Below, piece by piece: positions 11,501-60,818 of a DNA stretch of 64,000 bases (within the stretch, counting starts at the first letter, position 1; each line of letters starts with the position of its first letter). Below the pieces are notes generated by a model that was not told the origin of the DNA, made no database searches, and saw only the letters and a list, made by a program, of their open reading frames with translations. A program made the translations under genes and the position numbers. This DNA is from Diprion similis. Taxonomy: Eukaryota > Arthropoda > Insecta > Hymenoptera > Diprionidae. The stretch covers positions 6,570,001 to 6,634,000 of the forward strand of contig NC_060105.1 in assembly GCF_021155765.1 (NCBI RefSeq), read 5' to 3'.

Positions 11501-14151
11501 ACGCGTCTGTGATGTGAATGATGAAAAAAAGCTGGTAATGAGCCAAAAAAAAAAAAAAAAGAATAAAAGAGAGAAAGAGAGAAAGAGAACAAAGTTTAAA
11601 GCCTAAAAAAGCGTATCACCCGGAATTTCCTACACACGTATTGAATTTACGAACAGACATTATTCGCACTGTCAATAATAATGTGGGAGATCTGAATATT
11701 CATATAAGGTATACGCTAACCGTACGTAACGCGTTGACATAAAAATTGGCACTAGTAGAAAACGTCCGTAATTAAGTATTATAATCGAATCCGACTCGCC
11801 TATATCTCAACTGCCGCTGATTGCCGGTTTCTTATATCAAAAATTTTTTTCATGACATTCCACATACTTACGAACAGGTATAACGTACCTTATATACACA
11901 CGTGTGTGTATACGTACGTGCACAATTTGAAATACCTCAGGAGGTATCGACGTACTTCGCCACACCCAACGACGACCTTGCTCTCTCGATCCTTCTTTCA
12001 TTTTCTCTTCCTTCTCCACCCATTATTGCAAATTCCGTAGAACCTGATACATCACGGGATTTCAAACTCGAATGACACGAGCATGTATCTTATACATTGG
12101 AACGATAACTCAGGCAGGAGCAACAGTTGCAACCTTGGTTTCGAGCAAAAAAAAAAAAGTAAGAGAAAGGTCAGAGGACAAAGAAATGAAACTGCACTTA
12201 AAAAAAGCCGTTTTGTTAAGCTTCTTCTGTTTCACAATAAATTCATCGAACAATATAACGTAAAAACTGCGGAGTTCTGTGAAATTGGACCATCTCATGG
12301 TCATCCGAGACAAAAAATTAGAAGATCCGCAAACTAGCGTGGAATAATTTTATCCCAAAAAACAAGAGTCCTTAACGATTTCTCCACAGAACGAAATCAT
12401 TCGTTCTATAGACCGTAAATTACAGCGACTTTGTAGAATTTGAAATAAAATTTTTTAACGAGGGTTTTATGCAGCGTCCAGCCAGGCCAAGGATGAAGGA
12501 GATAAATAGAGAAAGGATAGTCCTACGGCCGGGAGTGCAGGCCAGAATTCTGCAATTCGAGTTGACGAAGAGATGTAGTAAGGTGCGCACACATACAGTA
12601 TGCAACAGGTATACCAACCCGGGTAAGAGTTGGCGCGAGTATGAATAGCTGCGTGGCATTTTAATACCCTTTGTAGTCCTGAAATTAACGGCAATCGCGT
12701 AGCCGCATCGCGGAGCCGGTTCTAGTAAAGTCCTACGATACAAATTATCGGGCAAGATCGAGTCTGCTGGCGTAAATCAGCGCCACCAGCTATGGGATGA
12801 ACGTGGCTTAACTCCATTGCGTCGGAGACGCGTCCGGGGCACTCCTGTCTATTGTTGATCACACCGAAGGCATGCGGTCTCTGACGCAGTGTGGGTACCC
12901 GATGTCGTATAAAGATTCTAAAATTGGTCCGCGGTCTTAGTTCCGCTTGCCTACGCCAAACCTTGGACTCCGATAATCGTTGTCGGCTGAACTTCCTCGT
13001 CGGGTCAAGAGCCAAGCTTCCAAGTAGCGGACTTGGACTGAAAACAATTTCCTTCCGTCTTTGATGGGTCCTTGAGCTGCACGAATGTCGCAGTGTTGAT
13101 CACTTATGGTGTAAAAGCACTTTGCATGGTGAGAATTTGAACCATGGATAGTTCAGAGGATGCTTTTATGGCGCTATAATCCGAGCTGCGATAGGTCAGG
13201 CTGAACTGCTAAGGTCGACAGTACAGAAAGTGACCAAACTAGTTTTGATCGAAGTTGGCATAAAGTTTGAGATTTACTAATGAGGCTAGTTGTCCTGAAC
13301 CAGTGGAACGGTTTAAGTACCTAACGAATAAACAAGCAGAAATCAAGGTCGGCAAAAATCGTCGCGATCCATTAGGAAGGATCATTGAAAGAAAGAAGAG
13401 ATTAGCTGCGCGTTAAGGCCAAGGCTAGTCCAGCCTCATCGATGTTCAATTATGTAACGATCTTATCGGTGATTTAAACAGAAGCGTTTTCAGCCCGCTC
13501 TAAAGCGACGATCTCTTGTTCTTCGCCCCGTGATGCTTCTCGTTTTTTTCTTCTTTGAGCATTAGAGTTGATCTGCAGATTAACAAGACGCACTGCGTAT
13601 TCGAACGACTCATCATCGCTCCGCAAATTTGACCATGATGATTGGCACGGTAGCGGATACGTAGAGAATTGGACCATTGTTTGCAAATTGATAGTTACCT
13701 CGGAATGCGTAATTGCATACGTATCAGGCAATCGTCATAACTGCGGAGGGGCACAAAGATTCTCATGCACAGTGGTGTCACACTGAGCAGACGAAACGGC
13801 TTATCCCGTTATTCAATCTTCTTCCAGCATGGGAGGCACATCCTGTTCTCTCAACTCTTGTCTAAGATCTGCAGAGACGCAGTTTCAGCTGCATTATAAT
13901 TTGTCATTCAGTATTCTGATGACACTGTCAAAGATGATGGTTTTAAATTCAGCAAAACTGTTCAGCGAGGACTACTGGAGAACACTCTTTGTAATATCAG
14001 ATAGTATTAATTCATAGAAGTCCAAAAGACATTTTCCATACGACAAAGGTCTTTACAACAACCATCCATCTGTTCCAGGTTTTCCTCCAAGCAACATTGG
14101 TCTGGAAAGAGGGAACATCAGCTCCAGGTAAACGAGACGACGTTCTAGCAG
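2598..14151. other. Intergenic, no firmly supported gene
   Basis: Several moderately long frames occur in GC-balanced stretches (5769-6260 plus, 6297-6872 minus, 6662-7132 plus, 12722-13015 minus). They overlap each other on opposite strands and show no motif I recognise. The segment 5570-6260 is locally GC-rich and might be a transcription start region. Poly-A tracts lie at 11426-11446 and near 11546-11560. The first exon of the cuticle-type gene downstream is probably somewhere in the last kilobases of this stretch but could not be pinned down. Confidence 0.5.
5893..6063 (+). CDS. Possible small ORF, 56 residues, unrecognised
   Basis: The ATG sits in a very good context (GACCATGG), inside a locally GC-rich block, and opens a 56-residue frame. 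The frame starts MVFMAFGSAW, continues with basic residues (WLRRVHRVV) and ends at TAA. I recognise no domain, and the first stretch is too weakly hydrophobic to be a clear signal peptide. It could equally be the start of a longer spliced gene, a uORF in a 5' leader, or chance. The only support is the start context and local base composition. Confidence 0.15.
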   Translation: MVFMAFGSAWLRRVHRVVGRDFPGSKVVVTVRVFHSSDPLSRAEHLRKVYRSLPTA

Positions 14152-15473
14152 GAACGGAGTTCCTGTCAGTCTTTATAAACGGAGCGATGGCGCAGCCGCC
14201 GATAAGACGTCGAGGTTCGCGTCGAGGCGGTATAATATCGACGGACAACGTGGCGGCGGAGTCTCAACGTCAGGAGGCGTCGATCTACAGGATATCGCGA
14301 ACATCCCGAACATCAAGTGCACCACCGCCGCGACAGGATGAGGAAGACGATTCCCGGGTTTCCCCGATCAGCCAAAAGTCCGTCGAGAGTTCGGCGAGCT
14401 TCACGTCGCTGCTGGACAACCTCTCGACGGCGAGTGAGATCGGCTCGATGCTGACGCCCAGGTCGGAGCCGGTTAGCCAGAAGGTAATCGGGGTCAGTGT
14501 GACCTCGACGGTCGAAGCGACCCCGTACAAGGTTAGAGTGGAGCACCACGTCGACGACGAAATGACAACCCCGACGACGACCCCGATCGCCTTCGTTACC
14601 CCCCTTCCCGCCCTGACGGCTGCCGACGAGCTGAGCAACATCGTCTCCGAGTCAAACCGCAGCGAGTTCTCCGTCGACGAGGGCGCCCCCCGAAGTAGCT
14701 GGCGACTCCGGCCCAGAACCACTACCCCGAGGACTCGAGGCTTGCGGCCCTCCCACCGCCACCACCGCAAGGAGACGGGCGAGTCCGTCGAGGCGACGGG
14801 GCCCGACGGTAAGGCCCCCCATCCCCAGGGCCGGAAGGCGGGCCGGCACTACCAGACGCTCCTCTTCACCCAGCACCCGTCGCGGCTTTACGGAGAGGCT
14901 GAGAAGTCCTACGGCGAGCCGGCGCGGGTCTACTCGGAGCCTGCGCGGGTCTATTCGGAGCCGGCGAAGGTCTACAGCGAGCCAGCGAAGGTCTACGGAG
15001 AACCGGAGCGCGTTTACTCCGAGCCTTCGAAGGTCTATTCCGAGCCCGCAAAGGTCTACTCCGAGCCTGCAAAGGTCTATTCCGAGCCAGCGAGGGTCTA
15101 TTCGGAACCAGCGAAGATCTACGGACCTGACGGACGCCCCGTTAAACCCTCTGACGAACCGGAGGAGCAGAATTACGAGGTTGACGAGGCCGTCAGCGTC
15201 GGGAGCAACGGCAATGTCCACGGACTACAGGCCGTCACCGAACCCTCGGGGCCCCAGGACCCCGACGATGGGCATAAGGTCGGCTACGTCGTCGAGGGGA
15301 GGAACTACCGCAGGTATAGAGTCGAGGAACGCACACCCGACGGATTCATCGTCGGCGAATACGGCGTCGTTAGTCACGACGACGGATCGCTTAGAGGCGT
15401 TCGATACACCGCCGATAGCAGTATCAATCCTCAGCTCATTCACGAAACTCTTATGAAGTTTCTCGCTCTTTAG
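14152..15473 (+). CDS. Cuticle-type secreted protein with YSEP heptad repeats (5' exon missing)
   Basis: This is a GC-rich open frame that ends at TAG 15471-15473. The chosen start is a candidate 3' splice site (TTCTAGCAG before 14152); 14079 and 14170 are alternative acceptors. Just after it, the hydrophobic FLSVFINGAMA followed by QPP looks like the end of a signal peptide whose beginning lies in an unfound upstream exon. An internal Met at 14188 is a less likely start. Next come an acidic Ser/Thr-rich part, an Arg/His-rich part, about ten seven-residue repeats (VYSEPAK/R; 14907-15121), then a C-terminal region of about 65 residues (from about 15274). That region contains YRVEERTPDGFIVGEYGVVS and RYTAD and resembles a divergent Rebers-Riddiford chitin-binding domain (chitin_bind_4), known from arthropod cuticle proteins. 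A role in cuticle is inferred from this. It stands alone, about 23 kb upstream of tailless. Confidence 0.75.
14907..15121 (+). repeat. Coding 21-bp minisatellite (VYSEP heptads)
   Basis: There are about ten in-frame 21-bp units, each encoding V-Y-[SG]-E-P-[AS]-[KR] with few substitutions. Third positions vary (TCGGAG, AGCGAG, TCCGAG), so the array is not freshly duplicated DNA and the peptide pattern seems to have been kept. The regularly spaced Tyr and Pro are typical of structural extracellular proteins. Confidence 0.9.
15274..15470 (+). other. Rebers-Riddiford-like chitin-binding region
   Basis: This is the C-terminal region of the cuticle-type protein. It shows a spaced Gly/Tyr pattern: GYVVEGRNYRRYRVEE, then TPDGFIVGEYG, then DDGSLRGVRYTADS. 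The G-x-Y-x-V-x-D-x-G-x-x-x-x-V-x-Y-x-A-D layout is that of the R&R consensus. It departs from the classical RR-1/RR-2 core, because the usual Y-x-A-x-E-x-G-Y and the Pro-x-x-Pro end are altered. A profile search with chitin_bind_4 would settle the class. Confidence 0.6.
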
Positions 15474-41300: not shown

Positions 41301-43885
41301 GTATTCAGACAGTATGTAACGTTTCTCCGGGTGACGGGTGACGGGTGAAACTTTTATATCGTTGTGACCGCAGGTTCACCCTCGCGTGATTCTCCTCAGG
41401 GTTAAATTCGCCCTTATCTCCTCCCCCTTCGGCAAGTTGGCGTCCATCCGGTCCGCCGCGGTCGCGTCCCTCGAAGCTCGTTCGCCTATTAATAAACGGC
41501 TGAAATATGCATGTAAGGGATGGCCGGTACTCAGTGAGCGGTGAATTATTGACCGGGAATAAATTGTTACCTTTGGGTTAAGCGGCGTAACTTTCCTCAC
41601 GCGATACGATTCCTTCGGCGGCCGCCTCGGAGGGAGCGGAAAGAATCAGGAAGAAGCGGAAGGGTGCGAGTCCCGGCCAGTAATGCAGGTATTGTCGGGA
41701 CTCAGCGAAGCGCGGTTCAAAGATTTGGGCATAATCTGTCACAGAATGAAGTATTTTGGTAGGAACCCGTTTACCGGAGGAAAACACGCCGCGTGAATGA
41801 CGTCCCGATGAATGGATCAATTTGTCGCCAACTCGCAGCGCCTTAGCGCTCCGCTTCCAGCCTCAGCCAGCTTCGCATTATGCGCGAGCATATTGTAATA
41901 ATTCGGGGCCCGCTCCACCCTCGCTCCATTCATTCCCGTCAGCGGGTGAATTCCCGTTCCACTCGTTGAATAGACGGACCGGACGTTGCCGCTGAATTCA
42001 TTGAGCACCGCTCAAGTGAGCAGCCGAAACACGACACTCGGGTCTGTATCGCGATCTCTTGATCAGTTCCCCATTATTCCGGGCCTTAAGGTGCAGGGCC
42101 CTGCGCCTCTCTCACTTCAAGGTTAAACGCTCGTTGACGGCGAGACGGATTTCCAAAGTTACGCGTCTTTCCCGCCTCCACGTTCCTTCTAACGGTGGCA
42201 TTGTCTTCCTCTCGCAGGCAGGATCCTCTACGACATCCCCTGCAAGGTGTGCCGAGACCATTCCTCCGGGAAACATTACGGGATTTTCGCATGCGACGGA
42301 TGTGCCGGATTCTTCAAGCGCTCGATAAGACGCAATCGACAGTACGTGTGCAAGGCTAAGTCCGAGGGTGGATGCATGGTTGACAAAACTCATCGGAACC
42401 AGTGCAGAGCCTGCAGACTGGCCAAGTGCATCCAGGCTGGGATGAACAAGGATGGTAAGCGGAGAAGCATTGATTACATGAAATCGTTTTACATCGATGG
42501 TGATCCTCTTCTCGAATACTCGTGTAATGCCTTAATTGTATTCTCATTTCTCCCCCCACAGCCGTCCAACACGAACGCGGGCCCAGGAACTCGACCCTTA
42601 GACGGCAAATGGCTCTCTACTTTAAGGAGCCTGAGGCCATGATGTCGGGGGTGCCACAACCGACGCCGGCCGCTGCTCTGGACTTGGCACTCCCCAAACC
42701 GCCGGCCGAACCTCGCGTTTCCATCGCTGGTCCATCACCCCATCATCCGATGCCGCATCCCGTCTTCTGCAATGGAATGACCATGTCCAAGGTGAGAGAA
42801 AATGATATTCTTATTGAATAGGTATTCGATGTGTTTTTTTTTTGCCGAGAGAATTTAATGTGCAAGTCACTCAGAGTTAGATTTTCATTTCAATATTTCT
42901 CCGTGTTTGTAACACTGGAGTCATGGACACAAATGAAGGAATGAGACAACTTGACTGGAACACGAAATTGTCAACTCAGTTCCAAGTGATGAAAATCGAC
43001 GAAAGTTTCCGGTGTGGACCACCGTAGAGTAATCCTTGTGGCCAAATCGGTATTCCAATATATCTTACGCCTTTAGATCGACGTAAAAAAAAGACAAGTC
43101 TATACATCAGTTGAGCACTTTTTTCACAGCCTTAAAAATGCTTGTACAAAAGCAAAACTTCCAGCTTTCTCCAACCCTAACTTGGAACAAACTTCGTATT
43201 CCAGCTCCCGACGACTTTGGGCGCACTTCCAACGATGCCGATGGTGTCTTCGATAACCGCGGAATCCGTCTGCGAGCAGGCGGCTCGTCTGCTCTTCCTT
43301 AACGTCCGTTGGGCCCGAAGCGTGGCGATGGGCACGGGTCTATCGATGGAGGATCAGTTGACACTGCTCGAGGCATCCTGGCGGGAGTTGTTCCTCCTGG
43401 CGGCGGCCCAAATGTTGCCGGGTCTGGACCCGGCGCCATTGCTTCCAAGCGGCCCCCAGGGCCTTGGACTCTCGGTGGAAGTGAGTCGCTTCCGGGCGGC
43501 GCTAGGCGGGTTTCACTCGATGAACCTGGACCCCCATGAGTTCGCCTGCATCCGGGCGATCGTCCTCTTCAAGGCCGGCCTCGACAGCGAGACCGTGCCG
43601 AGCAGCAGCAGCAGCAGCAGTGGATCCGCCTCGCCAGGAACCGGAAATCGTCTAAGAGACGCCTCCTGCGTAGCAAGACTTCGCGACGGGGCCCAACTTG
43701 CTCTTGGTCAACGACTCAGTAGCGCACCTCTCGGCGCTCTGAGGTTTGGTAAATTGTTGCTACTGTTGCCCGCCCTTAGATCCGTTTCACCCCACGCCAT
43801 CGAGGAGCTTTTCTTTAGAAGGACTATCGGTATTATACCGATTGAAAAAATCATTTGCGATATGTATAAGGCGGCTGCCGTCTGA
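38372..43885 (+). CDS. tll: Nuclear receptor Tailless (NR2E1 type)
   Basis: DNA-binding orphan nuclear receptor, in insects a repressor-type regulator of terminal and brain patterning. Coding exons are 38372-38459, 42218-42454, 42562-42791 and 43205-43885, all with GT-AG junctions and consistent phases (1, 1, 0), giving 411 residues. The zinc-finger domain spans residues 36-109. Finger 1 uses C38, C41, C55 and C58 and carries the P-box CDGCAG, whose Ala is typical of Tailless. Finger 2 uses C74, C82, C92 and C95, with seven residues between the first two Cys (the enlarged NR2E1 D-box). The A/T-box [15 protein letters not shown] follows. The ligand-binding domain lies on the last exon: [13 protein letters not shown] and [16 protein letters not shown] form the family signature, and [11 protein letters not shown] leads to the terminal AF-2 helix. 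A Ser run from (AGC)n interrupts the domain at about 43601. AATAAA at 44001-44006 is a likely polyadenylation signal. Confidence 0.97.
38490..38780. repeat. Terminal-inverted-repeat element in tailless intron 1
   Basis: The left end reads TTAAAGGGGGGACGATAGTG. The right end on the minus strand reads TTAAGGGGGGACTTCGGTG. Both continue with AAATTT, TCGAGTTTT and CTAAAAAAG blocks, so arms of about 90 nt are paired. An inner palindrome, GCGCAAGGAACTTTT against AAAAGTTCCTTGTGCG, lies at about 38568-38617. With TTAA at the edge and no coding potential, it looks like a MITE of about 290 bp (piggyBac-like ends are possible but unproven). Confidence 0.65.
43601..43622 (+). repeat. (AGC)n coding poly-Ser in tailless
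   Basis: Six or seven AGC triplets plus AGT encode a Ser run in the ligand-binding domain, between the helix ending IVLFKAG and the part beginning RLRDASC. It lies where nuclear receptors have a loop, so it is probably tolerated. It is a candidate for length polymorphism. Confidence 0.85.
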
Positions 43886-46111: not shown

Positions 46112-46193
<82 letters not shown>

Positions 46194-52367: not shown

Positions 52368-53591
52368 TTAGTACAAGCGACGCTGATCGGGGTAAAACAA
52401 GCCACCAGGTGGCTGCTGTTGCTGCTGGTGATTCCTAGCCACCGAGTTCTGCGGCTGACCCTGCTGATACGGATGGGGGTTGAATTGGGCCTGAGGATTT
52501 ACTCCTGGATTGTACGCCGCCTGAGGCTGGGCCTGATACTGCTGGGGACTAGGTTGCGCGGATCCATATTGAACCTGAGGGTTGTACTGGGGTCGGTTTT
52601 GGCTCGGGGCCTTAGCCAACTGGGGCGGCGGCTGGGCCGGGATGTGGGTTATCGGTTCCCGAGCCTGTTGGAACTGCAGGAGCTGCTTGATGCCCGCTGG
52701 AACCTGGGAATAGGGTCTGTAGTTGATATGCTCGACTGGCGGCTGGGCAACGGTCACCGGATTTGAAGCCCTGACTCCGCGGATGCCTCCTGGAACAGGA
52801 AATGACGAGTCTGAGAAACGGTTTTGGACCAATCATTCGACAATGGAAACTCACCGTAAACATTGATGGCTTCCGAGGCGACGAGACTTCCGGAAAAGGC
52901 CGTCAGCACCATCAGAAGAACCTGAAAATTTGAATGCTTGTCAGTATCTGCTCGGATATACTCAATAACGGCAGGTAGAATTTTTTTCCCGTGTCTTCGC
53001 GGGGGATATATTTCATATTTCATGTGCGAATGCATATTGTTGCATACCCGTACGCACACACAGCGGGAAAAACGACTAGCTACGTTGGACGGCGGAGAGC
53101 AGTTGCATTAGAAAGTAATGCAGACAGGTAGTTGATATTAAATTGCAGACCAGAAATGCCTGCCTGCACTATCGTATACAGATACTTGACTGTAGGGCGT
53201 GGAAAAGGTCACTCAAGAAATTATTCATCATTCCCGTGAATCAAGACGGAAGTGTGGTTTCTTTTTTATTTTTTCTACACAAAATGGAAAGTCTCGGGCA
53301 AAGAAATCGGTATAAAACTCTGTGTACGAAGTTTGTTAAAAAAATGTACCAAAACGAAGAATCCATTCATCTGAGAAACTACTTTGCAATTTTTTCTTGT
53401 AATATCATAACTCCTGGTTAATAAAATAATAAGCAATTGAAAACCGTTCAAGAAATCACTAACCTATAATTGATTTGAAATGTTTTTTTTTTTTAAATCT
53501 CATATCGTAACAAACTAATTACACTTTTATCCCTATTTTAAGTAAAATGATCGACAATACGAAGGCGGATAATACTCACTGGGTAATTCAT
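52368..53591 (-). CDS. Secreted Q/P-rich protein, family member 1 (166 residues)
   Basis: Three coding exons on the minus strand: 53591-53580 (only MNYP), 52921-52855 and 52789-52368, with GT-AG junctions and phases 0 and 1. Exon 2 completes a signal peptide (MNYPVLLMVLTAFSGSLVAS), with cleavage probably near SEA. The mature part carries one family block, NYRPYSQVPAGIKQLLQFQ, also found in the two genes upstream of it. It ends in a Pro/Gln-rich tail with Q-Y-N-P-type repeats and a QQQQQPPGG run. No Cys is seen in the mature part. I do not recognise the family. A role as a secreted structural protein is inferred from the signal peptide and composition. It is the smallest, and the last in transcriptional order, of a head-to-tail trio. 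Confidence 0.8.
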
Positions 53592-55070: not shown

Positions 55071-58000
55071 TTATTTATGTTCAGTAACGGGTTTAATGTT
55101 CCCTTGATTTTGGGCCTGGTAATTAGGGACCGGTCGTGAGACGGGTTCAGGAATGTAGGGCTTATCCGGGCGGTAGATTATCTGATTGGCTATAATATTG
55201 TAAGGAGTCTCAGCCTGGAATTTGAGTATTTGTTGGATACCAGGGGGCAGGTTTGCAGAGTACTGGGGCAAAGCTTCAGGAGCCGGCTGTGGAATTCGTT
55301 TGTATTGCTGCTGATTTTGTCCCTGAACATGTTGCTGAGCTTCGCGTTTACCCCGCTGATGACTCTGAGCTCCGTTCTGAGGAGCGTGTTCAACGTTTTC
55401 CAAGTTGTATCTGTAAAATCCCTAACTTTGATTAAGATCGTCGAACAAGCAAACCAGCTCGTGTCGTCGATCGATAGATTACCTAAACTGTTCCGGAATA
55501 GCGTTAACGTATGGAATTTGCGATTGGAATTGAAGCAGCTGTTTTATCTGGGGAGGAACATTCGTCGAGTACTGAGGCTGCGACTCTGGAGCTGGCTGAG
55601 GTATCCTTCTGTACTGTTGTTGCGGCTTTTGTTGGTGCTGAGCCTGGCGTTTACCTCGATGATGACCACCTTGCTGCGGATTCTGGGCAGGAACGCTCTC
55701 CAGGTTGTACCTGAAAGATCGCGAATTTGGGACTCGTCTTCTACTTCGAGCTGTCCCAACGACTCACCTGAACTGTTCCGGAATGGCGTTCATGTACGGA
55801 ATTTGTGACTGAAATCTAAGAAGTTGTTGAATCTGCGAAGGAACATTTGTCGAGTAGTGTGGCTGGGCCTCAGGAGCAGGCTGAGGAATTCTTTTGTACT
55901 GTTGCTGCGGCTGTTGTTGTTGTTGATTCTGATGCTGCTGTTGATGGGTCTGGCGTTTTGATCGCGCGTGGCCTATTCGCGGAGTATTTTGAAGCGGAAC
56001 TTCGGTTTTGAAGGGTTGAACGGGGGCTGGAGGAGTGTCCAGATTGTACCTGAAAGTCCAGAAGCCGTGTTAAAATATATTGACGTGTTGCCAAGAATTG
56101 ATGTTCGAGAATTAAGAAGCTTCAACTTACCTGAACTGTTCAGGAATTGCGTTCTGGTACGGAATCTGTGACTGAAAGTTTAGTAACTGCTGTATCTGAG
56201 ACGGAACATTGGCCGAGTACTGAGGCGTGGCTTCGGGAGATGGCTGAGGTATCCTTCTGTGCTGCTGCTGCTGGCCCTGCTGCTTCTGGGCCTGACGTTT
56301 GGGTCTTTGATGTCCGCGTGGATTCGGCCGATACCGAGGAGGCGGCGAATCCTCCCGCGGTTGTTCCTGAGCTGAAGTCTGAGACTGAGCGTGAGCGATA
56401 GCGTCGTACCTGCACAAAGTGAATCGGCGTTGGATGCAGAGAAAGAGAGAGAGAGAGAGAGAAAGCAATGGGCAGAACAGAGAAACAGACCCTTGGCAAA
56501 GGGTAATGACGCCGATTCGAGAGTAGGTACCTCAAGTGTTCCGGAATGGCGTTGAGGTAGGGAATTTGCGACTGGAATTGAAGCAGCTGCTTTATTTGGG
56601 CCGGCGCGTTGTCGTAGGGTCTATAGCTGATCGGTTGTTGAACCGAAACTCGCTCTTCACCCTGATGAGTGGGCTGAGGTGCCGGTTGGGGTGCCGGACG
56701 AGGCGCTGGTTGCGTCGCGTACTGAGCTTCCGCCTGGCTTTGAGTGTACTGTACAGGCTCAGGTTGGGGCCGCTGTTGCTGAATTTGTGGCGACAGTTGA
56801 CCATGCGCGTAAGACTTCCAATTGAGCTTGAAGCCTGGAAAGGTTATTCGAAATGAAGGTCCGAGGTACGAATCTCCTCTGAGCTTCCGAAACGAGATCA
56901 AGTTCGGTATTTTTCGTCCCAGATCAAAAAATCTTCTCCTTCGTCTAATTGACTATCATCCCACTGCAGAAATGTTCCGAACGAAGAGACTTAACTCGCA
57001 CCTACCGTTTGGATCGTTGTACTGCAGCGACCGCTGGTTTCCTTGATTCGCATCGTATTGTCCTAATTGGATCGAGGACTGCTCATGACCGCTCGATGGT
57101 TCCTGAACCTGATAGTTGGCTTGTCCGTCTGTGGGTCCCTGTATTTGGAAGTTGGCGTTTCCGTCTGTGGCTCCTTGTATTTGAAAATTGGCGTTTCCGT
57201 CCGAAGCTCCCTGGATATGAAAGTTGGCATTGCCGTCCGAAGCACCCTGGATCTTGAAGTCGGCATTACTGTCTGTGGCACCCTGAATCTGGAAGTCGGA
57301 ATTTCCATCCGACGCACCTTGGATCTGAAAGTTGCTGTTGCCATCAGTGGCACCTTGGATAGAGAAGTCACCAGTACCCAAAGAGGCTGAAAACGCGGTA
57401 TAGGAAGATAGGCATAAATAATCAAAGAAGAAACTTGAGGAACTTTGACTTGTAGTTAAACAAAGTCTGACAGTTGCAACTACAGTCATCGACTCCTTCC
57501 TTATTCCATTTCGAATTCCTCTCTATTCACACTCACCACTTTGATCGCTGTACTCAATCCCCTTCTCCTCGCTGTACCTGAGACTCTGAGCTGCACGGTT
57601 CCCGTCACTCGGGCCCTGGATGGAGAATTGGGCCAGGCATAAGGGTAGGGTGGATAAAAACAAAAACTGAAATCAAAAAAAACTATGATCAAATAGGAAC
57701 AAACGAGTTCAATGCTTCGTTCCGATGGTTGTGCACGATGAATTAATTATCAATAGCAGGTTGTTTTATCTCGCGTATCTTTGCCAGTTACCAGCTGCAC
57801 ACATCAACGGGGTACACATACCTTTCCAAGAAAAACGAAAACAAGACGTTAGATTTCGAAGCGAAAGGTAAGTGGGCTATATGTATACACATGGCTGCAG
57901 GATTGCGGATGGCTGAATTTGCAGGCACGACAGTCGTGCAAACAGATACGAGCAGGTATGCGTATAGATTATACACACTCAACTACGCTCGAATAGAAAG

Positions 58001-58554
58001 TGATATAACCGCCTATGCAGCCACTTACTTTGCTGCAACGTTTCCTCGTTCCAGTTTTGACCGAAATATAGCTCACTACACTAGAAGCTGTGTTGCTATC
58101 GACACGAAGAAAAGCCTGACAAAGAATCTAAGTAGTTTACGATGTGTGGAAAACCATAGAAAACCACTTTTCACGAGTGTATCAAGACTTTTGACGCTAA
58201 AGGGTAGTAAATAATGTCCAGTACATTGATCAGATACTCGATCTTTTGTCGAATGGCTTTTTCCCGTAAAACTCTAAGCCCTGACCATTAGAAGGCTGAT
58301 TTTACACCCGTCAATAGTATTAAAAAACAACTTTCTTTTGTTCTGTAGTAAGGACTTTATCCCTTCCTTCAACACTGTTTCACGTTCCGCAAGGCAGCAA
58401 GATTATCAATCCCGATTATCGTTTCCTGGGGGTTTTTCACCATCTGATAACAATGTGAACTAAAGCTGGTTCCCCGCACCTCGAGATGTTGCACAATGAC
58501 TGTGCGTGCACGATTGCTAGAGAGTGGCAAGGTACTTACGTGCAATGGAGCCAT
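55071..58554 (-). CDS. Secreted multi-cassette Q/P-rich precursor, family member 2 (652 residues)
   Basis: Eight coding exons on the minus strand: 58554-58540, 57666-57537, 57386-57006, 56834-56531, 56409-56131, 56049-55768, 55710-55483 and 55410-55071. Every junction is GT-AG and the phases close on a TAA stop. Exons 1-2 encode the signal peptide (MAPLHFLFLSTLPLCLA). Exons 2-3 carry 12-residue repeats (ANFQIQGATDGN). Exon 4 opens with GFKLNWKSY and ends with the first QLLQFQSQIPY...IPEHLR block. Exons 5-7 are duplicated cassettes of 93, 94 and 76 codons, all phase 2-2, each running from R-Y-[ND] through a Q-rich part, [KR]RIPQP and Q-Q/K-LL-x-F-Q-S-Q-I-P-Y to A-I-P-E-Q-F. Exon 8 is a variant with a C-terminal PYNIIANQIIYRPDKPYIPE block. 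R-X-K-R sites occur in exons 5-8. No Cys is seen in the mature part. Family unknown to me. AATAAA overlaps the stop. Confidence 0.82.
55344..55355 (-). other. R-G-K-R convertase-type site, exon 8
   Basis: Encodes RGKR followed by EAQ in the last cassette. It matches the furin consensus R-X-[KR]-R. It is one of four at equivalent positions in successive exons, which argues that the site is part of the repeated unit and not a chance basic cluster. Confidence 0.6.
55483..55710 (-). repeat. Duplicated exon cassette (exon 7, 76 codons)
   Basis: It begins R-YNLES, carries HRGKRQAQ (site at 55647-55658), then YRRIPQPAPES and NVPPQIKQLLQFQSQIPY, and ends VNAIPEQF before a phase-2 donor. It is the shortest cassette. 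It is flanked by introns of only 72 bp (55411-55482) and 57 bp (55711-55767). Confidence 0.85.
55768..56049 (-). repeat. Duplicated exon cassette (exon 6, 94 codons)
   Basis: It begins R-YNLDTPPAPVQPF, carries ARSKRQTH (site at 55953-55964), then Gln-rich YKRIPQPAPEAQPHYSTNVP, then IQQLLRFQSQIPYMNAIPEQF. Its borders match those of exons 5 and 7 at the same codon and phase. Confidence 0.85.
56131..56409 (-). repeat. Duplicated exon cassette (exon 5, 93 codons)
   Basis: It begins R-YDAIAHAQSQ, carries QRPKRQAQ (site at 56295-56306), then HRRIPQPSPEATPQYSANVP, then IQQLLNFQSQIPYQNAIPEQF. Its first part (about 30 residues) is unlike the other cassettes and acidic/proline-rich. Confidence 0.85.
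56295..56306 (-). other. R-P-K-R convertase-type site, exon 5
   Basis: RPKR followed by QAQ. The P at the second position is acceptable in the R-X-[KR]-R consensus. It is the first of the four sites in protein order; cleavage here would separate the 12-residue-repeat and W-K-x-Y part from the cassettes. Confidence 0.6.
57102..57380 (-). repeat. 36-bp tandem repeats encoding 12-residue units
   Basis: About seven to eight in-frame units of the form [AS]-[ND]-F-x-I-Q-G-[AP]-[ST]-D-G-N. A further single copy of the motif (QFSIQGPSDGN) is in exon 2, so the repeat spreads across an intron. The invariant F-x-I-Q-G and D-x-N positions alternate hydrophobic and polar residues, which would suit beta-strand stacking. 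That structural idea is inference. Confidence 0.9.
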
Positions 58555-58593: not shown

Positions 58594-58631
58594 ATCTGAG
58601 AAGGCCGCGCGATACCCCCAGCTAATTTATA
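58594..58631 (-). promoter_or_regulatory. TATA plus initiator promoter of member 2
   Basis: On the minus strand TATAAAT (58631-58625) is followed about 31 nt later by TCAGAT (58599-58594), the expected spacing of a TATA box and an arthropod initiator. The resulting leader would be about 43 nt to the start codon at 58554. Confidence 0.65.
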
Positions 58632-59864: not shown

Positions 59865-60818
59865 CTACTTTACCGCAGCAGTTAAATACGAAGATTTGCG
59901 ATCAGATTCTTCGGAAACAGGCTCAGCCTGATCCTCCTTGTAATTTGGTCGGTACGCGTAATAAACTCTGCTGCGATATTTGTACGGACCAATTTCGTCA
60001 TCAGGTAAGGGTTCGGGTACGAAAGGGGTTTCGGGTTTATAAACTATGTGATTAGCAATAACGTTGTACGGTATTTGAGCCTGGTACTTTAGCAGCCGTT
60101 GAATTTCCGCGGGAACGCTCTTGTCGAAGAAGAGAGATTGATGTGCACTCGATGTTCTCGCTTCCGATATAATTTCACTTTGCTGGTCACGAGTTTCCGG
60201 CCTGACGATCTCCGATTGGTACCCAACTCCCTGTCTCTCCGGAGGAACCGATTGCTGCGGAACCGGAAGTCGGTGAAAGAAGGCCTCGTGATCAACGTAG
60301 GGCGCCTGGGCTTCGTAAGACTCCATGAGGAGCTGCTTTAGCGGGTTTGGAACTTGCGAGAAAGGCTTGTACCGCACAGGCTGCTCCTGTTCATGCCCCA
60401 GAAGCTCGGCTCGAACTCTGGCTTGATTTCCGGTCGGCCTGACGACCCTCGGTTCCACTTTTGCCGTTGCTTTTCCCTCGTCCCTTCGCTCGTAGTGACG
60501 CTGAATTTGGGACTTGAACTGAGTGTAAGGAGCGTACAGCTTCCAGTCAACTTTGATCCCTGAAACATTACATCAAGACGCAGTTGGCGTGAAAAAAGTG
60601 ACCAAAAAAAGTATTCGGTGCAACAGAATGTTCAAAAGATTTATCCACAAACCGTTATCGTCGCTGTATTTGATGTGCCCTGGTCTCAACGGCGCCTCTG
60701 CCAAAACATTGGAAACCAGAACCAGGACGAGTACCTGTAAGAAACAAGGAAAATTCACAGTTAGTTTATGGAATGAGGATACTGCTCCGCAAAGATAAAT
60801 CAGACTCACTCGAAACAT
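59865..60818 (-). CDS. Secreted Q/P-rich-family protein, member 3 (261 residues)
   Basis: Three coding exons on the minus strand: 60818-60810 (only MFR), 60734-60653 and 60559-59865, with GT-AG junctions and phases 0 and 1. The exon 1-2 splice builds the signal peptide MFRVLVLVLVSNVLA. The mature chain starts EAPLRPGHIKYSDDNG, then GIKVDWKLYAPY, matching member 2's GFKLNWKSY block at the same exon border. It then has one RYKPFSQVPNPLKQLL block and, after an acidic/polar linker, KSVPAEIQRLLKYQAQIPY. It ends with NVIANHIVYKPETPFVPEPL, close to the end of member 2, plus a Tyr-rich, then acidic tail. It has no R-X-K-R array and no 12-residue repeats, so it looks like a less elaborated relative. 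No recognised domain; function unknown. Confidence 0.82.

Follow-up and report, generated by a model that had tools for sequence, protein, structure and literature searches.

A glutamine-rich, secreted-type protein gene with an R-x-K-R site in each of four duplicated exons: a candidate precursor of several structural chains

The window analysed here, a single 64,000-nt stretch of Diprion similis DNA, contained three related genes on the minus strand, designated members 1 to 3. Member 2 was modelled as an eight-exon gene at 55074–58554 (−) with a 652-aa product; all of its junctions were GT/AG, and the open reading frame was continuous over the eight exons. The proposed start was in exon 1 (58540..58554, −), which encoded MAPLH and read as ATG plus 15 bases plus GTAAGT, and a TATAAA box (58626..58631, −) preceded this ATG by 77 bases. 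The scan for exon 1 (6–30 coding bases, certain donors, up to 60000) returned two candidates, and the MAPLH candidate was chosen because it combined the GTAAGT donor, the TATA box, and a signal-peptide-like start; this proposed start is the least certain part of the model. Exon 2 (57537..57666, −) carried the signal-peptide core FLFLSTLPLCLA followed by QFSIQGPSDGN, and exon 3 (57006..57386, −) encoded 12-residue tandem repeats of the F-x-IQG-A-[ST]-DGN type, the underlying array of 36-base units spanning 57114–57360 (−). Exon 4 (56531..56834, −) started with FKLNWKSYA and had one core unit (see below) at its end, without R-x-K-R. It was followed by four cassettes, namely exon 5 (56131..56409, −), exon 6 (55768..56049, −), exon 7 (55483..55710, −), and exon 8 (55074..55410, −), the last having a divergent C-terminus and the stop codon. 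This stop codon, which was overlapped by an AATAAA, ended at 55074, so the end of the region is corrected from the 55071 given in the preliminary description.

Exons 5–8 had AG acceptors, with GT donors in exons 5–7 and the stop codon closing exon 8, and all four were entered in phase 2; being homologous as well, they bore out the exon duplication proposed in that description. The hydropathy maximum of the protein was FLFLSTLPLCL at residues 6–16 (by hydropathy only, and with exon 1 as proposed). The N-terminus was accordingly classed as signal-peptide-like, in agreement with the signal peptide assumed earlier, and would direct member 2 into the secretory pathway; a nuclear-localisation role of the basic motifs was set aside in view of this start. 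Glutamine made up 128 of the 652 residues. A short first coding exon and clustering are habits of cuticle genes. The proposed first coding exons comprised five codons in member 2 and three in member 3, and member 2 showed the secreted-type, biased-composition, clustered-gene profile of low-complexity cuticular proteins.

Member 3 (59865..60818, −; exons joined by eye) displayed an MFR start, GIKVDWKLYA, two core units within one long exon, and the end NVIANHIVYKPETPFVPEP, while member 1 (52368..52921, −; exons joined by eye, first exon missing from the model) was a short relative rich in Q and P that had a single core unit (YRPYSQVPAGIKQLLQFQ). Both were without R-x-[KR]-R, and each had one R-x-x-R (RVVR in member 3 and RGVR in member 1). 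The first core unit of member 3 resembled that of exon 4, and its second resembled that of exon 8, including NVIANHIVYKPETPFVPEP compared with NIIANQIIYRPDKPYIPEP, the latter being found in exon 8 in place of the IPEQFRY block. The simplest history would be a two-core ancestor from which member 2 gained its cassettes, together with the site-bearing linker, via phase-2 exon duplication. As for the origin of the sites, either a gain in member 2 or a loss in member 3 would account for the pattern.

The genome searched for further relatives comprised 269 Mb in 60 contigs. The cassettes gave seven matches: six fell in the window (exons 4–8 and member 3), and the seventh, at E = 1.93, lay elsewhere. 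Member 3 gave three, all within the window; since neither search recovered member 1, distant members may be missed by this approach. The relatives seen in the genome were the two neighbouring genes, members 1 and 3, the former having been missed by the searches. Within 20 kb beyond the window, three loose motif matches were present, and by eye they were unlike the family. The Pfam comparison of members 1–3 yielded no family over the cut-off (best, Ino80_Iec3 for member 2 at 13.7 bits vs 27) and no match to the chitin-binding cuticle domain (R&R). PDB sequences compared with the member 2 cassettes gave 0 matches; the exon 7 pattern occurred in 20 and 124 stretches of viral and prokaryote contigs, respectively, none of which was a relative by tblastn; and none of six peptide strings, of which three were taken from the window and three were guessed as related wordings, occurred in the literature text searched.

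Three further features were recorded in the window: (i) at 14915–15122 (+), about ten 21-base units encoding PAKVYSE-type heptapeptides in a 492-aa open frame, with a weak, below-cut-off Pfam match to Cuticle_3 (pupal cuticle protein); (ii) at 42196–43882 (+), exons of a nuclear receptor that matched zf-C4 and a ligand-binding domain, with a DNA-binding stretch resembling that of tailless; and (iii) at 46112–46186, a long TA dinucleotide run of 37.5 copies.

Each of the four member 2 cassettes harbored one R-x-K-R site: (i) RPKR followed by QA in exon 5 (56295..56306, −; residue 312), (ii) RSKR followed by QT in exon 6 (55953..55964, −; residue 399), (iii) RGKR followed by QA in exon 7 (55647..55658, −; residue 482), and (iv) RGKR followed by EA in exon 8 (55344..55355, −; residue 559). 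These motifs, each with its Q/E-[AT] continuation, had been listed in the preliminary description, and all were in frame with consistent splice sites. There was no R-x-x-R in the 652-aa protein besides these four, and a non-basic residue (Q or E) stood after R-x-[KR]-R at four of four sites, as for furin/PC-type substrates. When the protein was shuffled 20,000 times (shuffled part from residue 20), no shuffle held at least four R-x-[KR]-R motifs, and the chance of one such motif in the shuffled single linkers was 0.16, 0.02, 0.04, and 0.01. When the stop-free stretches of at least 60 aa in all six frames of the 64,000-nt window (36,708 aa in total) were scanned, the pattern R.KR[QE][AT] had five matches, four of which were the cassette sites; the fifth, RRKKREA at 13551 (−), belonged to an 86-aa open frame unrelated to the cassettes. 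An AlphaFold model was made for exon 5 alone among the cassettes, from an alignment with six relatives; its pTM was 0.19, it contained a single helix at residues 70–80, and it placed the site in a coil with a mean pLDDT of 60 (low confidence). Our main reading, to which we assign a probability of roughly 55%, is that member 2 is a precursor cut by a furin/PC-type convertase at the four sites into several structural chains.

A second dibasic motif, reading HRR, YKR, YRR, and YKR in exons 5, 6, 7, and 8, respectively, abutted IPQP in all four cassettes. The pairs were RR at 56253..56258 (−) in exon 5, KR at 55890..55895 (−) in exon 6, and RR at 55605..55610 (−) in exon 7, these coordinates being hand counts, and KR at 55296..55301 (−) in exon 8, a hand count verified against the sequence. 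This motif is not of the furin type, because Q occupies P4. Together with the R-x-K-R sites it brought the [KR]R pairs of member 2 to eight, two per cassette and zero elsewhere in the protein. The [KR]R-IPQPxPE stretch was situated 12–19 residues downstream of R-x-K-R and was followed by a conserved core of the form QIQQLLxFQSQIPYxNAIPEQFR. The earlier statement that everything around the sites varies in length and sequence thus applied to the linker, and failed for [KR]R-IPQPxPE and the core.

Two other explanations of the basic motifs were weighed. One is that the protein stays whole, and that R-x-K-R and [KR]R-IPQP are basic patches binding acidic partners or taking part in cross-linking in the matrix. 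This would fit the acidic N-terminal part that adjoins the basic cassettes, the retention of the second dibasic in four of four cassettes with Q at P4 (basic pairs can evidently be kept without a furin-type role), and a retention of R and K for their charge; however, a charge role predicts neither the exact R-x-K-R spacing, nor the Q/E-[AT] that comes after it, nor the absence of R-x-x-R elsewhere, and we regard this explanation as rather unlikely. The other is that member 2 is a bioactive or signalling peptide precursor, in which both site classes would be cut to give Q-rich spacers and IPQP core peptides, with G-K-R amidation in two cassettes. The confinement of the basic pairs to the cassettes, two in each, and the G-K-R contained in the RGKR of exons 7 and 8 are in its favor, but PKR in exon 5 and SKR in exon 6 are without the amidation glycine, the units released by R-x-K-R cutting would be 77–90 aa long, and the neighbouring relatives share the core without having these sites. 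It is considered improbable; an amidated neuropeptide precursor was dropped as the main reading, the amidation glycine being absent at two of four sites.

The sites could also be a by-product of duplication, a single R-x-K-R having been copied with its exon too recently to decay, and the cassettes are indeed copies in the same phase. The gap-aware dS of the core (39–40 codons) was 1.25 for exons 5 and 6, 1.89 for exons 5 and 7, and 1.45 for exons 6 and 7, with wide errors, the bootstrap lower bounds of 0.55, 0.70, and 0.66, respectively, leaving this explanation some room; in contrast, the core dS of exons 5–7 against exon 8 was saturated. The corresponding dN was 0.12, 0.13, and 0.08, and 0.25 against exon 8. 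On these estimates the exon 5–8 cassettes are old. Synonymous differences were found at both arginines of the site (first R codon AGA/CGA/CGA/CGG and last R codon CGT/CGC/CGC/CGC in exons 5–8), while the K codon was AAA in all four cassettes, and the introns between the cassettes looked unlike one another by eye. In star-tree runs with no selection, the four sites were kept in 819, only 103, and 8 of 100,000 runs at d = 0.4, 0.6, and 0.8, respectively, in 2 of 200,000 at d = 1.17, and in 0 of 200,000 at d = 1.61 and at d = 2.18, the counts at the last three distances being the same for each of two start sequences. The survival at d = 0.6, the saturation of exon 8, the unlike introns, and the synonymous differences all argue against the by-product explanation, which we consider very improbable; recent duplication as the cause of site retention was rejected on the no-selection runs together with dS.

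The linkers were compared with the sites and the core. Columns invariant across exons 5–8 amounted to 3 of 3 for the site R, K, and R, 6 of 24 for the other aligned linker (1 of 11 when Q-holding columns were left aside), and 22 of 41 for the core, and pairwise identity of the linker outside the site block was 0.46. The linkers are thus themselves partly constrained, and the no-selection runs exaggerate the contrast. Judged by the invariance of the linker itself, the probability that a given set of three columns stays fixed by chance is about (6/24)^3, or about 2%, a figure to be read with the motif having been chosen after being seen. Moreover, the four sites do not count as four independent events, because the cassettes are homologous; what counts is their survival through divergence. 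When the site letters were masked, the sites of exons 5, 7, and 8 shared one column, and that of exon 6 was seven residues off because of a Q-rich insert. All these retention data came from a single gene and its four paralogous exons. A recheck with the gap-aware dS and the runs at d = 0.4, 0.6, and 0.8 weakened the no-selection contrast without altering the odds, and selection on the four R-x-K-R sites is likely, as the preliminary description had suggested from their retention, the synonymous codon differences between old cassettes pointing the same way.

Cutting at the four sites would produce (i) a predicted chain of residues 18–315 (298 aa, 32.7 kDa, pI 5.2, net charge −9), which would start with Q provided that residue 17 is the last of the signal peptide, and (ii) four predicted basic chains with net charges of +2 to +5, comprising residues 316–402 (87 aa, pI 10.3), 403–485 (83 aa, pI 10.0), 486–562 (77 aa, pI 9.9), and 563–652 (90 aa, pI 9.0). 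The chains after the cuts were predicted to start with Q, Q, Q, and E. Cyclisation is possible for either residue at an N-terminus, and in the basic chains it could yield pyroglutamate. The chains had previously been thought to end with the IPEQFRY block, which has to be revised: 37, 31, 20, and 21 residues lay between the IPEHLRY/IPEQFRY block and the end of the next R-x-K-R, and the last predicted chain (563–652) was without an IPE[QH][FL]RY block altogether. A more specific proposal is that the acidic chain and the four basic chains, coming at a fixed 1:4 ratio from one convertase-cut precursor, condense on secretion; the cut would free oppositely charged partners that condense together, and one transcript would thereby make a two-component extracellular material. 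This proposal is a long shot.

Insect structural precursors cut into several chains are known from the eggshell, where the Drosophila dec-1 precursors are processed in this way. In the genome, P_proprotein domains were located at four places (six matches, two pairs of which were neighbouring pieces), so convertase-type genes are present. A multi-unit precursor of structural peptides larger than hormones had been called unusual, and a precedent exists in the human basic proline-rich proteins, described in PMC10454625 as 'completely cleaved by convertases'. Like member 2, PRB1, PRB2, and PRB4 are secreted, P-/Q-rich repeat precursors, and the convertase cutting of PRBs gives several chains (PMC10454625). 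The human salivary basic proline-rich proteins belong to vertebrate saliva and are taken here as a functional analogue; unlike them, member 2 has its units as separate exons, each with its own conserved core. Cuticle collagens of C. elegans, which are cuticle structural proteins, also have R-x-x-R sites, present in 109 of 173 predicted ones and linked to the convertase BLI-4 in the excerpt of PMC10538796; the collagen site is N-terminal, whereas member 2 is non-collagen and has four sites, one per repeat unit. Tribolium TcCP30, as portrayed in the excerpt of PMC4440208, resembles member 2 by description in being secreted, of low complexity, and without the R&R motif, but it differs in being 171 residues long, with Glu at 36%, His at 21%, and Arg at 19%, and a multi-unit layout is not described in that excerpt. 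The literature search, which covered titles and abstract openings among the best of longer lists with subscription journals sparse, returned no cuticle protein of an insect in which convertase sites are repeated.

Taken as a precursor cut at its R-x-K-R sites, member 2 would be a structural protein rich in Q and P, secreted and probably disordered, that belongs to an epithelial matrix of the insect; we infer both the matrix role (cuticle or other apical matrix) and the tissue. It most likely grew from a two-core ancestor like member 3 by phase-2 tandem exon duplication, and the linker of each duplicated cassette carries a furin-type H-x-R-x-K-R|[QE]-[AT] site. A furin/PC-type convertase in the secretory pathway most likely cuts at the four sites. 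The products would be an acidic N-terminal chain, made up of the exon 3 repeats and exon 4, and four basic 9–10 kDa chains, each probably with a single short helix, as predicted by the model of exon 5 alone; the released chains would then be incorporated into the matrix. If the cutting is true, an ordinary matrix protein would have become, through exon duplication, a polyprotein releasing several structural chains in a fixed ratio, a design documented for vertebrate saliva would be extended to an insect matrix, and there would be a direct route to ask if the material is tuned by unit number or by the release of the units.
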